Source of the DNA: Halonotius aquaticus
Lineage (GTDB): Archaea > Halobacteriota > Halobacteria > Halobacteriales > Haloferacaceae
Assembly: GCF_003605575.1 (NCBI RefSeq)
Contig: NZ_QKNY01000005.1
Coordinates: 62,001-126,000 of the forward strand
Direction: 5' to 3'
Length of the DNA stretch: 64,000 bases
The notes below the pieces were generated by a model. It ran no database searches. It was not told where the DNA came from and was given only the letters and a program-made list of their open reading frames with translations. Positions within the stretch are counted from its first letter, which is position 1; the number at the start of each line of letters is the position of its first letter. The position numbers and the translations under genes are program-made. This document shows positions 26,643 through 34,751 of the stretch, in pieces.

Positions 26643-29075
26643 CTACGCCGCCCCGAGTGTGATGCGAGCAGTTGTCCCGCCGCTGTTGTCGAATGTAAGC
26701 TGCCCATCGGAGTAGTCGACGATCCGATCGATCAGCCAGAGGCCAACCCCACTGCCGTGTTCTAACTCTGATTCGTCGTGGCCGTCGATGACGGTGAGTT
26801 CGGTACTCGGGATACCGGGCCCATTGTCGCTGACCTCGATGACAACGTCGTCGCCGGCTTCGGTGGCCGTCACCCGGATCTCACCGCCGTCGTCGACAGC
26901 GTGTTCCAGCGCGTTTTCGATGAGTTGCGTGATGGCAACCGGGAGCTTCGGGTGGGCGAGAACCGACGCCGCTGTCTCGCTGTCGACGCTGACGTCGACA
27001 GCCGCCGGTGGGTCAGGCGCCATCTCGACTGCATCCTCGACAACGGTGTTGATCGCGACCCGGTGTCGCTGTTCCCGTGTCTGGACGACTTCACGCATTG
27101 TCCGCGCGTTGGTTGCGGTACGTTCGAGATTCTCACAGTGCTCGATGATATCGGCTGCGTAGGCGGCTGTCTCACAGTCCTCGGCGATGGCGTTGGCGTA
27201 CCCTTTGATCACCGTCAGATCATTCCGGAGGTTATGCCTGAGCACCCGGTCGAACACCGCCTCAAGCAGCTGGAGCTCCTCGCGGTTGTCGACCAGCTGG
27301 ATCGCCGTTTCAAGGTTCGAGGTCAGCGTTTCGGCGATACTCCGGTCGGCGTCGGTCAGATTCTGTGGTCGGACGGTGCCGGCCATCAGGATGCCAAACT
27401 CGCCGATCGGGGCGATAACCTCCGAGCGAACCACGCTATCCTCGTTGTAGGCGTCGGGCCGGGCGGCGACATCGCCGACGAGTTCGGTTTCGCCGCGCTC
27501 GAATGCGTCCCACGCGATCCCGTCACCGCGCTCGAATGCCGGCGGTGATCGAAAGAGATCGAAGGCCGGATCGGTCATCCCCAGTGGGGTGAGCCGGTCG
27601 TCGATCTGATCGTACTCCCACACCCCCGTGATCGGAAAGTTGAGCGCCGTCGGAAGCTGCTCAAGCACCGCATCGATCATCGCCGGCTTCGCTTCGGCGG
27701 TCACGGCTTCCTGGGTGATCGTCTGGACGGCTTCGAGGCTCTGGGTTCGCTGGGCCCGGGTGAGGCCGATATTCCCGAGTGTGCTCAACAGCCGGCCAAG
27801 TTGTCTGTCGGTCTCATCGAAAGCCCCTGGCCGCTCGTCGCCGATCACAAGCACGCCGTGGTCGCTGAGCGGACACAGCAGGACGCTTTCAATTTCCGGG
27901 CCTGCGTGGGCGATCGAGTCGTCGGCCGTCGACAGTTGATCGATACACCGGGTCTCCCCGCCGTAGACCGCCCACAGCGGTGTTTCGTCGTCGCCGCTGG
28001 CGGCCGCAAACATCGGCTCGTCGGCCGTCGTCGCCGCCGGTGTGAGGGCGTCGGTAGCCCGATCGTAGAGGTGTACCTCCGCGACTGACGCGTCGATGAC
28101 GGCCATCGCCGTTTCGATCGTCCGCTCGCAGGCCGTCTGTCGATCCTCGCTTGTCAACACCGCCTGTGACTCCGCATACAGCGATGCCAGGGTTCGGCGG
28201 CGTCGTTTCTCGTCGGTGATATCGACATAGAGCAGGAAAAACTCCCGGCCGGCTGCGATCGTGATCGGGACAGCCCGCAGCAGGAAGTCGCCGCTGCCGG
28301 TTGTGGTCTGTCGGCTGACCTCCGCGGTCACCGGCTGGCCGTCGGTGAGTTGGGCGTCGATATCGGCTGTCCCTCCCTCGTCGCTTGCGGCTGTCTCCTC
28401 GCTGTCAGTCGCCGGGATCGTGGGTTCGAGCCGACTCCCCTCCGTCGTCGAGGTGGCGTCGCCGAAGGTCGTCTCGAAGGCCTCGTTTCGGCGGGTGATC
28501 GTCGCCGTCCCATCGGTGGGAGAGACGGTCACCATCGGCTCTTGGATGGTCGTAAACAGGGCCTCAAACCGCCGTCGCTCGTTGCGAAGGGTTGCTTCGG
28601 CCGCCGTGGCCGTACACGCGGTTGCAAGCTTGTCGTTGAGCGGCCCGAGAGCGTCGATGACTGCCGTGGGAAGCCCCGACCCGCGCGTGCCGAGCAGCAA
28701 GACGCCGAACTCACAGAGCTCAAAGAGGTAGTAGTGGCCGTCTTCGCCGACCTCGCCGACGATCGGGAACGACTCGGCGTTGGTGCTTTCCTCGCCGCCC
28801 GTGTCGTTCTCGCCCTCGGTGTCGCCCGCTGTCCGTTCGGTGAGCCGAGCGCGTGCAGCGAGATAGACCGGATCGTCGACGGCGGCCGCAGGCTGGGAGA
28901 CGACCCGATCGTAGCCGCCATCCTCGTGGCGGCTAAAGACGCCGCCGACCGTACAGTTCAGTTTCTGGAGATACGCCTGTAGGGCGGTTTTAGCGGTCGA
29001 TTCCAGCGTTTCCCCCGGCGAGATCGCCAGTGAAATTTCATGGAGGATTTGGGTTCGGTGGGGGTGGTCAGCCAT
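26643..29075 (-). CDS. multi-GAF/PAS sensor histidine kinase
   Basis: 810 aa, soluble (no membrane segment). N-terminal GAF-like region (about 15-170), a PAS domain (about 185-300, ending LLYVDITDEKRRRR), two further GAF domains (about 310-590), then a haloarchaeal-type kinase core: phospho-acceptor H614 in VLRHNLRNDLTV, N-box NALEHA (N721), G1 box DNGPGIP (about 750) and a glycine-rich G2 (SGVGLWLIDRIV). It should autophosphorylate in response to a cytoplasmic cue. A FIST-domain gene precedes it by 24 bp on the same strand. No cognate receiver gene is adjacent. Confidence 0.9.
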   Translation of the reverse strand: MADHPHRTQILHEISLAISPGETLESTAKTALQAYLQKLNCTVGGVFSRHEDGGYDRVVSQPAAAVDDPVYLAARARLTERTAGDTEGENDTGGEESTNAESFPIVGEVGEDGHYYLFELCEFGVLLLGTRGSGLPTAVIDALGPLNDKLATACTATAAEATLRNERRRFEALFTTIQEPMVTVSPTDGTATITRRNEAFETTFGDATSTTEGSRLEPTIPATDSEETAASDEGGTADIDAQLTDGQPVTAEVSRQTTTGSGDFLLRAVPITIAAGREFFLLYVDITDEKRRRRTLASLYAESQAVLTSEDRQTACERTIETAMAVIDASVAEVHLYDRATDALTPAATTADEPMFAAASGDDETPLWAVYGGETRCIDQLSTADDSIAHAGPEIESVLLCPLSDHGVLVIGDERPGAFDETDRQLGRLLSTLGNIGLTRAQRTQSLEAVQTITQEAVTAEAKPAMIDAVLEQLPTALNFPITGVWEYDQIDDRLTPLGMTDPAFDLFRSPPAFERGDGIAWDAFERGETELVGDVAARPDAYNEDSVVRSEVIAPIGEFGILMAGTVRPQNLTDADRSIAETLTSNLETAIQLVDNREELQLLEAVFDRVLRHNLRNDLTVIKGYANAIAEDCETAAYAADIIEHCENLERTATNARTMREVVQTREQRHRVAINTVVEDAVEMAPDPPAAVDVSVDSETAASVLAHPKLPVAITQLIENALEHAVDDGGEIRVTATEAGDDVVIEVSDNGPGIPSTELTVIDGHDESELEHGSGVGLWLIDRIVDYSDGQLTFDNSGGTTARITLGAA

Positions 29076-29099
29076 CCTTACCCGCTCCCCGCGGCTCGC

Positions 29100-30182
29100 T
29101 CAGAGGCCATCGATTGCTCCGACGACCGCGGTTTTATTGTAGTATTCGAGATGGCCCCGCCCGTCGTTGGCGATCTCACCGATGGTGAGCGCGCCGATCG
29201 TGTTGGCCGTCTGACTGAGGGCTGCTAGCTCCCGGTCGAAGTCGGCGTCGAGATACTGTGCCCGTGAGAGACAATCGAAGGTGACCATCGCGCTGTCGGT
29301 GTGTGCTCCCTCGCTGGCGGCCGCGTGGGCGCGGTCGGCCGCCGCGACGAGCGTTTCGGGGTCGCCCTGGAGGATGTGGACGAACTCACCTTCGGGGAGG
29401 TCGCCGAAACACTGCAGCGAGCCGTCGTCGTCGACCGCAAAGGGGTCGCGGACGATCCGCTCGGCGCCCAACCGACTGATGCCGAAGGGATGTGAGGTGG
29501 CGATCTCGGCGAAGGTTTCTGTCGTCACCGTCCGGTCGGTCTCGGCGTCGATGATGGCGGCGTAGCGGTCGTAGGCCGGCTGGCCGTCGAGGGTTTCGAG
29601 TCGGCGGCCGTCGGCGGCAGTGATCTCGAAGGGGCCGCCGATATCCGTCCAGCCGTGTTCGACGCCGATGGTGCTTTCGGCGGCGACCATCGCCACCACG
29701 GCGGCGTCGCCGACGAGCCCTTCAGGGGTGAACAGACAGTGGCGTCTGTCGCCGTCGAACGTGCCGGCGCCGCCGCCGATGTAGGTGTACTCGACGCCGT
29801 AGGTGTTGAACAGCTGTTGGACGAACTGGTCGCCGGCGTCGGCGTAGGCATCGACGAACACGAACGCTGTTTCGTCGTCGCCGTCCGCGTCGGCCTCAAG
29901 CGGTTCGTCGGTGGTGGTGATCGGTTCGACTGTCGGCTCAACATCCAGGCCGGCGACGACCGCGCCGTCGGCGCGGACCGCGCCGTCGTAGATGACCTTC
30001 GGGAACAGGCCGCCGAACACCGGCGTTGAAAGCCTTCGAAGCGTCTCATCGACAGCCGCCGGGGTAAACGCGTCGTCTGGTGTCGCAAGCACGAGGAGTC
30101 CGTCGATATCAGGGTCGGCGTCGAACTCTCGGAGCGTCGTGTGAAACTCGCTGCCGGTCGTCCGGCAGTACGCAGCCTCCAT
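29100..30182 (-). CDS. FIST-domain sensory protein
   Basis: About 360 aa with FIST_N (residues 1-190) and FIST_C (200-350). This pair is a predicted ligand-binding sensor often encoded next to histidine kinases, as here. Start: the minus-strand TATA-like gactttttatc centred at 30209 puts the leaderless transcript start on the ATG at 30182 (MEAAYCRTTGSEF); the further upstream ATGs at 30191 and 30218 overlap the promoter. The histidine kinase follows 24 bp after its stop, so the two probably form one signalling unit. Confidence 0.83.
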   Translation of the reverse strand: MEAAYCRTTGSEFHTTLREFDADPDIDGLLVLATPDDAFTPAAVDETLRRLSTPVFGGLFPKVIYDGAVRADGAVVAGLDVEPTVEPITTTDEPLEADADGDDETAFVFVDAYADAGDQFVQQLFNTYGVEYTYIGGGAGTFDGDRRHCLFTPEGLVGDAAVVAMVAAESTIGVEHGWTDIGGPFEITAADGRRLETLDGQPAYDRYAAIIDAETDRTVTTETFAEIATSHPFGISRLGAERIVRDPFAVDDDGSLQCFGDLPEGEFVHILQGDPETLVAAADRAHAAASEGAHTDSAMVTFDCLSRAQYLDADFDRELAALSQTANTIGALTIGEIANDGRGHLEYYNKTAVVGAIDGL

Positions 30183-30270
30183 GACTGCCATCCACACCGG
30201 CCGCGATAAAAAGTCCACCGTCGGGGTGGGTGGTGGCGGGATCGCCTCGGTGCGGTGCTGGCGGCACTGA

Positions 30271-30414: not shown

Positions 30415-30449
30415 AGTGGTATTGCGCTTCGGTACGAGAAATCAGAAAG

Positions 30450-30524
30450 TGGGTTTGGGCAGATTTGAACTGCCGGCCTCCTCCATGTCAAGGAGGTGTC
30501 ATAACCAGACTAGACCACAAACCC
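30450..30524 (-). tRNA. tRNA-Val (anticodon GAC)
   Basis: 75 nt on the minus strand. Acceptor GGGTTTG pairs with CAAACCC followed by A; anticodon stem CCTCC/GGAGG encloses TTGACAT (anticodon GAC, codons GUC/GUU); T arm GGCAG-TTCAAAT-CTGCC. No intron, CCA not encoded. Confidence 0.95.
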
Positions 30525-30697
30525 GTGCTGGTTGTGCGTTCTGACGCACTCGTCAGTATCCGGGGGACGTAATTGAAGCTTTCGAAGCGCGGCCCCGCTG
30601 GCGGTTCCCGACGTGTCCGCTTGCTGTCGGTCGTCGTGTGTTCGTCCCGTCGTCGTCGACATCCGGGTCGCGCTGTCGGTCGATAGCCTTTTAGCGA

Positions 30698-30720
30698 TGT
30701 ACAGACGTGTACATTATAAG
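30698..30720 (+). promoter_or_regulatory. trp operon promoter with two TGTACA boxes
   Basis: TGTACAGACGTGTACA (30698-30713) contains two TGTACA hexamers whose centres are 10 bp apart, one helical turn. It directly abuts the TATA element TTATAAG (30714-30720), about 30 nt before the trpD ATG. TGTACA is the reported TRP-box recognised by the tryptophan regulator TrpY in Methanothermobacter. Binding next to TATA would block or guide TFB/TBP. The same logic in a haloarchaeon is inference. Confidence 0.65.
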
Positions 30721-30746
30721 CCGAACTCATACACTGGTGACTAACA

Positions 30747-31769
30747 ATGCAGGACTATATCGAACGTGTGGCCGACGGTGAGGATTTGGGGCTCGACGAG
30801 GCGCGGGATGCCGCCCGCCTCGTGTTCGAGGAAGCAACCGAGGCGCAGATCGGCGCGCTGCTGTCTGCGTTACGGGCCAAGGGCGAGACCGAAACCGAGA
30901 TTGCCGGCTTCGCACAGGGGATGCGCGACGCCGCCCGCACCATCGAGCCCAACCGCTCGCCGCTGGTCGATACCTGCGGCACCGGCGGCGACGACTACGA
31001 TACGATCAACGTCTCGACGACGAGTGCTATCGTCGCCGCGGGCGCGGGCGTCCCCATCGCCAAACACGGCAACTACTCCGTCTCTTCATCCTCCGGTAGC
31101 GCGGACGTCCTCGAAGTCGCTGGCGTCACCGTCGACGCCGAACCGCCCGCTGTCGAGGACGCGATCAACGACGAGGGGATCGGGTTCATGCTCGCCACCG
31201 TCTTCCACCCCGCGATGAAGGCCGTCATCGGCCCGCGGAAGGAACTCGGCATGCGAACCATCTTCAACGTCCTCGGCCCGCTCACGAATCCCGCCGCCGC
31301 GGACGCCCAACTGCTCGGCGTCTACGATCCCGACCTCGTGCCCGTCATCGCCCGCGCGCTCACCGAGATGGAGGTCGAACGCGCGCTCGTCGTCCACGGC
31401 GCGGGGATGGACGAGATTGCCCTCCACGACGCAACGACCGTCGCCGAAGTCGATGGCGACGAGGTCACCGAGTTCACGCTCACGCCTGACGATCTCGGGC
31501 TCGACGCGGCTCCCATCGAAGACGTTGCTGGCGGCACCCCCGAAGCAAACGCCGCCGACCTCGAAGCGATCCTCACCGGCGAAGAAACCGGCCCGAAACG
31601 CGACCTCATCCTCGCCAACGCGGGCGCGGCAATCTACGTCGCTGGCGAAGCCGAGTCGCTGGAAGCCGGCGTCGAAGCGGCCGCCGAGGCCATCGAGTCG
31701 GGTGACGCCGCAGCCAAACTCGACGCCTTACGCGAGTCGACTGCCGCACCGGAGGCCGGGGACGCCTGA
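30747..31769 (+). CDS. trpD: anthranilate phosphoribosyltransferase
   Basis: 340 aa, normal length. Transfers phosphoribose from PRPP to anthranilate (tryptophan pathway step 2). PRPP/pyrophosphate loop DTCGTGGDDYDTIN, anthranilate-site KHGNYSVSSSSGSADVLE, RTIFNVLGPLTNPA and the C-terminal NAGAAIYVAGEAESL are all present. First gene of trpDFEG; its stop overlaps the trpF start (TGATG). The ATG lies about 30 nt after a TATA with two TGTACA boxes. Confidence 0.96.
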   Translation: MQDYIERVADGEDLGLDEARDAARLVFEEATEAQIGALLSALRAKGETETEIAGFAQGMRDAARTIEPNRSPLVDTCGTGGDDYDTINVSTTSAIVAAGAGVPIAKHGNYSVSSSSGSADVLEVAGVTVDAEPPAVEDAINDEGIGFMLATVFHPAMKAVIGPRKELGMRTIFNVLGPLTNPAAADAQLLGVYDPDLVPVIARALTEMEVERALVVHGAGMDEIALHDATTVAEVDGDEVTEFTLTPDDLGLDAAPIEDVAGGTPEANAADLEAILTGEETGPKRDLILANAGAAIYVAGEAESLEAGVEAAAEAIESGDAAAKLDALRESTAAPEAGDA

Positions 31770-32416
31770 TGGCACGCACCAAGATCTGCGGCATTACGAA
31801 CCGCGCTGACCTCCAAGCCGCCATCGAAGCCGGCACTGACGCCGTCGGGATCATCTCGGCGGTCGACGTGGCGACGACACGGGAGGTCGACCGCAGCACG
31901 GCCGCCGAGTTGGTCGCCGCGGTGCCGCCGTTTGTCACCGCCACGCTCGTCTCGATGCCCGAGGACGCCGACCACGCCGTCGAGCTCGTCAAAGCGATCC
32001 AGCCCGACGCGCTCCAACTCCACGGCGAGTTCGACGCCGACGACCTCGGCTACATCCGCGCCGAAACCGGCGTCAAAGTCATCGCCGCTGTTGACCACGA
32101 GGATACCGACCGAGCCAGCGCGCTTGACGGCGTCGCCGACGCCCTGCTCATCGACTCGACGACCGAAGAGGGCGCGGGCGGCACCGGCGACCCCCACGAC
32201 TGGGAGGCGACCGCCGACCTCGCCGATACGCTGACGACCCCGGTGATCCTCGCCGGCGGCCTCACCCCCGAGAACGTCGCCGAGGCGATCCGGGTGGCCG
32301 CGCCGTTCGGCGTCGATGTCGCCTCCGGCGTTGAACGCTCGGAGGGCAGCAAGGATCACACCGCCGTCGCCACCTTCGTCCGGAACGCCGGCCGCGAAAT
32401 CGAGGTGCCAGCATGA
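31769..32416 (+). CDS. trpF: phosphoribosylanthranilate isomerase
   Basis: 215 aa TIM barrel performing the Amadori rearrangement of phosphoribosylanthranilate. Motifs: KICGITNRADLQAAIEAG (catalytic Cys in KICG), PDALQLHGEF, LLIDSTTEEGAGGTG (catalytic Asp) and PVILAGGLTPENVAEAI phosphate site. Overlaps trpD by one base and trpE by four, so expression is tightly coupled. Confidence 0.95.
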   Translation: MARTKICGITNRADLQAAIEAGTDAVGIISAVDVATTREVDRSTAAELVAAVPPFVTATLVSMPEDADHAVELVKAIQPDALQLHGEFDADDLGYIRAETGVKVIAAVDHEDTDRASALDGVADALLIDSTTEEGAGGTGDPHDWEATADLADTLTTPVILAGGLTPENVAEAIRVAAPFGVDVASGVERSEGSKDHTAVATFVRNAGREIEVPA

Positions 32417-34100
32417 CAACCGGCGAGACGGCGAGCGATGACCCGGCCGACGCAGCCGCCGCCGACAGCGACCTATTCAGCTTCGACCGCGACCGCGATG
32501 AGTACGCCGCCCTCGTTGCCGACGACCGCGAGGAGCCGGTCGTCGCCCGCGCGGCCGCAACGCTCGAACTCGATACCTCGCCGCTCGCCGCCTACGCCGC
32601 CCTCGCCGACCGCAGCGAGTACAATTTCCTCCTGGAGAGTGCCGAAAAGGTCGCCTCCTCGGATCCCGACGGCGCGTTCACCGCGGCGACCGACGCCGAA
32701 CGCCACGCGCGGTACTCCTTCGTCGGCTACGACCCCGAAGCGATCATCTCGGTGTATCCGACCCGAACCGAGGTCGACCGCCTCGGCGACGCCGGTGACC
32801 TCGTCGTCGACGCCTACCGCGGCGACGCCGCGACCGACGGCGACGTGCTCGACCGCCTCCGGCGCGGCCTCCCAGCGGTCGACCGCCGCGGCTTCCCCGA
32901 TGTCGACCGCCGCACGCTCTCGGGCGGCCTCGTCGGGTTTCTCGCGCATGAAGCCGTCTACGATCTGGTGCTTGAAGAAGTCGGCCGCGAGCGACCCGAC
33001 ACCGACCTCCCGGACGCCCAGTTCGCGCTGACGACCCGGACGCTCGTCTTCGACGACGCCGAAGGGACGGTCGAACTCGTCTTTACCCCCGTCATCGGGC
33101 CCGACGACGACCCCGGCGAGTGCTACGACGACCTCGTGTCCGAAGCCGCCGACGTTGCCGCGACGCTCGCCGCGGCCGACGAACCCGAACCGACCGGCTT
33201 CCAGCGAACGGACGAGACCGCCGGCTCCCAAGCCGACTACGAGGACGCTGTCCGCACGGCCAAACAACACGTCCTCGACGGCGACATCTATCAGGGTGTC
33301 ATCTCGCGTCGCCGCCAACTCGCCGGCGACATCGACCCGATCAGCTTCTATGAGGCCCTTCGCTCGGTCAACCCCTCGCCGTACATGTATCTCATGCGCC
33401 ACGACGATCTCTCCATCGTCGGCGCGAGCCCCGAAACGCTCGTTTCTGTCGAGGGCGACCGCATCGTCTCGAACCCGATTGCAGGCACCTGCCCCCGAGG
33501 GTCGAGCCCCGTCGAAGACCGCCGACTCGCTGGTGAGATGCTTGCCGACGGGAAAGAGCGCGCCGAGCACACGATGCTCGTCGACCTCGCGCGCAACGAC
33601 GTGCGCCGGGTCGCCGATCCCGGCAGCGTCGAAGTCGAGGAGTTCATGAGCGTCCTGAAATACAGCCACGTCCAGCATATCGAATCGACCGTCACCGCCC
33701 GCGTCGCCGACGAGTACGACGCCTTCGATGCTGCCCGTGTGACCTTCCCCGCGGGGACGCTCACCGGCGCGCCGAAGGTTCGCGCCATGGAGATCATCGA
33801 CGACCTCGAAGCCGCACCGCGTGGCGTATACGGCGGCGGGGTCGGCTACTTCTCGTGGAGCGGCGACGCCGATTTTGCGATCGTGATCCGCACCGCGACC
33901 GTCGAACACGGGGGTGCCGACGGCGACAGTGTGGACGGCGATCTCGCCGGCGCAAGCGAGGGTGACGACCTGATTACCGTCCAAGCCGGCGCGGGCCTCG
34001 TCGCCGACAGCGATCCCACCTCGGAGTACGAGGAGACCGAACAGAAGATGGACGGCGTGTTGACCGCCATTGAGCGGCTTGAATCGCCGGAGGGCGAGCA

Positions 34101-34104
<4 letters not shown>
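32413..34104 (+). CDS. trpE: anthranilate synthase component I
   Basis: 563 aa chorismate-using enzyme; with TrpG it makes anthranilate. The C-terminal chorismate-binding domain (about 260-540) has DIYQGVISRRRQLAGDI, NPIAGTCPRG, LVDLARNDVRRVADPGSV, TFPAGTLTGAPKVRAMEIID and YGGGVGYFSWSGDADFAI. Near the N-terminus YNFLLESAE is the region used for tryptophan feedback inhibition (LLES motif). An acidic, variable insertion lies near residues 495-525. Overlaps trpF and trpG by four bases each. Confidence 0.95.

Positions 34105-34751
<647 letters not shown>

Follow-up and report, generated by a model that had tools for sequence, protein, structure and literature searches.

The stretch of Halonotius aquaticus DNA analyzed here (64,000 nt; referred to as the window) contains a trpDFEG operon. 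The genes of the operon, with their profile matches, and a neighboring tRNA gene are as follows:

30747..31769, plus strand: trpD, anthranilate phosphoribosyltransferase, first gene of the operon (TIGR01245, 418.7 bits; cut-off, 199)
31769..32416, plus strand: trpF, phosphoribosylanthranilate isomerase (NF002298, E value of 2.3e-49, below its curated cut-off)
32413..34104, plus strand: trpE, anthranilate synthase component I (TIGR01820 TrpE-arch, 556 bits; cut-off, 512)
34101..34751, plus strand: trpG, anthranilate synthase component II (NF041322 Anth_synII_Halo, 361.5 bits; cut-off, 320)
30449-30524: tRNA-Val, beside the trp operon

Two minus-strand open reading frames (ORFs) of 810 and 372 amino acids also lie beside the operon (26643-30218). 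By eye, they resemble a sensor histidine kinase and a FIST-type sensor, respectively, the latter without an NCBIfam match at 1e-20.

The trpD promoter contains two TGTACA hexamers with a start-to-start distance of 10 bp (spacer, 4 bp), as a first-pass annotation of the window had claimed, and a weaker fourth slot in the same phase, which that annotation had missed. The promoter features are the following:

30688..30693, plus strand: TATA-like element CTTTTA, part of the core CGAcAggCTTA that precedes box 1 and is conserved (alignment of 30 haloarchaeal trpD promoters)
30698..30703, plus strand: box 1, TGTACA (mean information, 1.55 bits per column; 30 relatives)
30708..30713, plus strand: box 2, TGTACA, at a 10-bp distance from box 1 (1.79 bits of information per column on average; 30 relatives)
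30718..30723, plus strand: phase slot 3, AAGCCG, with no TGTACA box in trpD (conserved AAgaCGAA in relatives)
30728..30733, plus strand: fourth slot in phase, with CATACA as a degenerate box (1.39 bits of information per column on average; supported by the 20- and 30-bp spacing peaks)

Positions 30688-30717 read CTTTTA-gcga-TGTACA-gacg-TGTACA-ttat, and the trpD ATG follows about 30 bp downstream, at 30747. In many relatives, slot 4 is CGTACA or another GTACA-containing word. The first-pass annotation had taken TTATAA (30714-30719), which follows the boxes, for the TATA box of trpD. This word is not conserved, relatives having ATTACAAG, ATCGTAAG, and similar sequences there, whereas the position upstream of the boxes (30688-30693) reads CTTTTA or CTTAAG and is conserved, with CTTA preceded by CGAcA in trpD promoters or CGCAAG in trpC promoters. 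We infer that CTTTTA acts as the TATA box of trpD. From the distance to this element, transcription probably starts at about 30718..30723, and the boxes would span the region from the TATA element to that start. The trpD leader 3' of the boxes (30718-30746; AAgaCGAAc...GGTGacta.cAATG) is also conserved in haloarchaea. Its GGTG could base-pair with the end of 16S rRNA; Haloferax is described in one report (PMC3986360) as not using the 16S rRNA pairing mechanism at leaders.

Single TGTACA words are close to chance number in the window (6 versus 3.63 expected, with 12 of 100 shuffles reaching 6). The pair, however, is rare. Mismatch-free TGTAC-N5-TGTAC occurs at two places in the whole genome (2,468,392 bases), namely, the trpD and trpC promoters, and these two exact sites thus mark both trp operons; a whole-genome pattern scan found the exact pair at no non-trp promoter. 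The second site came from this genome scan:

G000:C12:79834-79858: second array, upstream of trpC, with trpB next downstream

This array consists of four box-like words at 10-bp intervals (TGTACA, CGTACA, TGTACA, and TGAACG). Slots 1 to 3 are box-like in the trpC promoter, where a few bases separate the third from the start codon, and slots 1, 2, and 4, not slot 3, are box-like in the trpD array. With one mismatch allowed, a three-box GTAC pattern recovered only the trpC array in this genome. The 26 one-mismatch box pairs inspected in the same genome (L035-L060) were mostly intragenic and included no further convincing target.

Conservation was assessed in 60 haloarchaeal relatives, in which trpD and trpC were located at high identity in 56 and 59 genomes, respectively. 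The promoters were divided into a first set (30 trpD and 30 trpC) and a second set (26 trpD and 28 trpC, one too-short trpC fragment being excluded), and each was scored by its best 10-bp-spaced box pair (matches out of 12; threshold, at least 10). The first-pass annotation had named a lack of conserved boxes upstream of trpD in relatives as grounds for refutation; its proposal withstood this check, as 53 of 56 trpD promoters contain a pair scoring 10 to 12 (30/30 in the first set and 23/26 in the second). The corresponding count for trpC is 46/58 (27/30 and 19/28), and scores of at least 10 occur in 0.8% and 0.5% of shuffled trpD and trpC promoters, respectively. In the first set, the score has its maxima at spacings of exactly 10, 20, and 30 bp and is at background level for 9, 11, 19, 21, 29, and 31 bp, and this result was repeated in the second set. 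Thirty haloarchaeal trpY promoters, used as a control, gave a flat spacing profile (i.e., no phased boxes). Among the 49 places with exact TGTAC-N5-TGTACA in the 60 relatives, 36 are at trp starts (28 trpD, 6 trpC, and 2 trpB), and a reversed control pattern gave 8 rows; the 13 remaining pairs revealed no recurring gene among the matches listed.

Three trpD promoters score below 10 (L286, L290, and L291). Three trpC promoters without an array (L317, L319, and L320) count against conservation. In two of these three genomes, those of the divergent haloarchaea G045 and G058, the array stands at trpB instead. These three-box arrays lie between trpC and trpB, directly 5' of trpB:

L128 (G058), about 1466-1491: three-box array
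L129 (G045), about 1576-1601: three-box array

The first-pass annotation had also called for a search for a TrpY-like gene; this genome encodes one, as do nearly all relatives:

G000:C10:331546-332034: TrpY-family gene (NF053754), directly behind a hisB-like gene (by eye)

The encoded helix-turn-helix (HTH)-ACT protein matches the TrpY family profile over positions 1-163 of 163 (232.2 bits; cut-off, 180). Above this cut-off, the family is present as a single copy in each of 56/60 haloarchaeal relatives, including 46/46 genomes with a completeness of 90% or more; the four genomes without a hit are incomplete. In a sample of 119 genomes from the phylum, 118 have a match, 117 of them above the cut-off. 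XRE/HTH_3 proteins of the H. aquaticus genome, which had been considered as candidate regulators, were dropped once TrpY was found. For TrpY relatives, a structure search yielded no solved example.

The haloarchaeal gene is located in a his cluster and does not adjoin trp; at L202 (88-1998), it stands behind hisA-like and hisB-like genes. This position raises the possibility of a tie between histidine and tryptophan control. The H. aquaticus gene is neither divergent from trpE nor preceded by boxes. Its assignment to the TrpY family is compatible with this, because divergence from trpE and autoregulation belong to the Methanothermobacter gene arrangement and are not features of the family.

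To examine more distant archaea, we located trpE in 115 of the 119 genomes and read 20 loci from 15 families, to which four Methanobacteriaceae loci were added (24 distant trp loci). Each locus was scanned for three boxes at 0, 10, and 20 bp, and the best array was compared with the trp upstream zones. The top array was strictly inside a zone in 16/24 loci (expected, 2.2; P = 9e-12, with zones that cover 2 to 18% of the sequence and were defined from ORF lists when the arrays had already been viewed once). Six further loci were tied inside and outside the zone (three at noise level), and two had no top array in a zone. Family f21 accounts for three of the clear misses; the others are one f24 locus and one Methanobrevibacter locus.

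Three Methanobacteriaceae loci (L165, L166, and L167) have box pairs with 10-bp spacing at or in the trpY-trpE gap, and they carry an HTH-ACT gene of about 167 codons that is divergent from trpE and exceeds the NF053754 cut-off. This is the arrangement described for Methanothermobacter TrpY in the available part of PMC6737238. Three further families have their best array in front of a gene that adjoins trpE and by eye encodes a TrpB-like beta subunit (trpB2-like):

L142, 9859-9895: array upstream of the trpB2-like gene
L146, 9724-9769: array upstream of the trpB2-like gene
L141, 5403-5438: array upstream of the trpB2-like gene

At the f24 locus (L139, 10757-10830), a TrpY-family gene is divergent from trpC across a gap of about 50 bp without a TGTACA array. 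The protein appears to have been retained there beside the operon, with the boxes gone or changed. We also considered family f21 as Thermococcus-like, against which stand split RNA polymerase B genes beside the trp operon (by eye) and no Tar-like sites.

The putative recognition helices of 29 proteins were compared in their HTH regions, and the pattern is a correlation among few lineages. They read DRRVVDSTT in haloarchaea, DRR(T/S)I(R/K)(A/S)T in Methanobacteriaceae, and DRKVV(V/I)(S/M)AI in f21 and f24, so that DRR is common to lineages with arrays and DRK occurs in those without. In a TrpY tree, the array-less group joins Methanobacteria, a placement that carries a long-branch warning, and haloarchaea group with other methanogens. 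Because arrays occur on both sides of this split, the tree suggests that the association of TrpY with the array is old.

TGTACA is reportedly the consensus of the TRP box in the original work on Methanothermobacter TrpY. To our knowledge, TrpY, a tryptophan-sensing repressor, has been studied so far only in distant methanogens. We consider the conserved, exactly phased boxes of this two-operon regulon to be the operator of a TrpY-type tryptophan repressor, with a probability of roughly 0.86. The first-pass annotation had proposed the same type of site, and its proposal gains support from the TrpY-family gene in the genome and from the phased boxes in the trpY-trpE gap of Methanobacteriaceae. 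As judged from sequence, haloarchaeal TrpY would bind the boxes, tryptophan would be its ligand, and the effect would be repression. Each TGTACA palindrome would form one site, and since the sites recur every 10 bp, all would lie on one face of the helix. TrpY molecules could then bind next to one another along the DNA, starting at the TATA element and continuing through the transcription start. Tryptophan bound to the C-terminal ACT domain would cause TrpY to fill the array, and the filled array would keep TBP/TFB or RNA polymerase off the promoter. With plentiful tryptophan, trpDFEG in the window and trpCBA behind the second array would be shut together.

A shared operator at both operons predicts co-induction of the kind seen in Halobacterium salinarum, in which omission of aromatic amino acids induces all seven trp genes (operons trpCBA-OE1472F and trpD1FE1G1; PMC4162585). 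The same study reports induction of other aro genes and proposes LrpA2 as a regulator (PMC4162585); TrpY therefore need not be the sole regulator. This proposal and the position of the trpY gene in the his cluster, away from trp, are among the points that we count against TrpY.

An unlikely alternative is that the boxes are a genuine trp operator read by another regulator, such as LrpA2 (Trh1) of the Lrp/AsnC family. This family also binds multiple sites, and the H. salinarum data available in PMC4162585 give a 14.9-fold induction of LrpA2 without aromatic amino acids. Halobacterium Lrp/AsnC proteins resemble the system described here as haloarchaeal regulators linked to amino acids, LrpA2 responding to a shortage of aromatic ones, but they belong to another family, and the accessible parts of PMC2894021 and PMC4162585 do not link TGTACA boxes to them. 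A term search of the available Halobacterium Lrp text (PMC2894021) found mention of neither LrpA2 nor tryptophan. Two further observations favor TrpY over LrpA2: in Methanobacteriaceae, the TGTACA arrays are located at the trpY gene itself, and the TrpY family is present in all 46 of the haloarchaeal genomes of good quality.

Much less probable still is that the conserved sequence serves as part of the core promoter, as an initiator, or in an RNA leader, with no regulator site. The position between the TATA element and the start codon and the conservation of the downstream trpD leader (AAgaCGAA...GGTG) would suit such a role. Measured from the start of the TATA-like element, however, the array begins at a distance of 10 bp in trpD and of 4 bp in trpC. 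Because of this 6-bp shift, the boxes are in phase with each other and not with the core promoter, and the array is no core-promoter element; the confinement of exact pairs to trp promoters in this genome also argues against such an element. Most of the trpC boxes would lie outside the transcript, since they follow the TATA element and the start codon comes soon after them, which counts against a leader element. Chance, or shared ancestry without constraint, would fit the near-chance number of lone TGTACA words but is refuted for practical purposes, as 25/30 trpD and 24/30 trpC promoters beat all 100 of their dinucleotide shuffles and as information is 0.19 bits per column just upstream of the trpD promoter (-40 to -21; 30 relatives) versus 1.55 and 1.79 in the boxes.

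The operator that we assign to TrpY shares several properties with the M. thermautotrophicus system, i.e., boxes over the trp promoter and a trp operon as the target (as described in part of PMC6737238), an HTH-ACT regulator of the same NCBIfam family, and, in Methanobacteriaceae relatives, the same 10-bp phase. It differs in that the haloarchaeal regulator gene lies behind a hisB-like gene and not beside the trp operon, the trpY promoter has no boxes, and the arrays stand on two separate operons. Tar (TK0271) of Thermococcus kodakarensis likewise regulates trp along with other aromatic operons in an archaeon, but it is an activator, a different protein, and has its own site, TGGACA-N8-TGTCCA, whereas the H. 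aquaticus trpD promoter shows TGTACA boxes; outside Thermococcales, Tar is reported in a limited number of genomes (available sections of PMC6737238). These sections also state that the T. kodakarensis TrpY homologue does not specifically bind the trp promoter and that haloarchaeal homologues exist whose function could not be estimated (PMC6737238). The presence of the protein alone is thus no proof of the pairing, because f21 and f24 have TrpY without arrays and the T. kodakarensis homologue lacks specific binding to the trp promoter. Searches of an open-access literature library listed no report of TRP boxes or TrpY function in haloarchaea.

The first-pass annotation had left conservation and convergence across Euryarchaeota as alternatives. 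Conservation fits better than convergence, because arrays occur in many families in between. It seems reasonably likely that TrpY and the phased TGTACA array are a pair inherited from the ancestor of Methanobacteria, Methanosarcina-like methanogens, and haloarchaea; that word and phase were kept while operon structure, regulator position, and genome composition changed; and that loss or rewiring of the pair affected only some lineages (f21, f24, and, according to PMC6737238, Thermococcus). The operator assignment extends a known regulator-operator type to haloarchaea, a large group, and describes the operator more sharply. It names the likely switch of haloarchaeal tryptophan synthesis, which is directly testable in the genetically tractable Haloferax, and it offers a case of an unusually old conserved regulator-operator pair; lineages that have the protein but lack the boxes provide natural controls for studying changes in the target of a regulator. 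In some methanogen families, single TGTACA boxes stand 5' of the TrpY-family gene (L228, L233, L235, L242, and L243), with additional TATACA-like words upstream in L243, and these single boxes may point to autoregulation.
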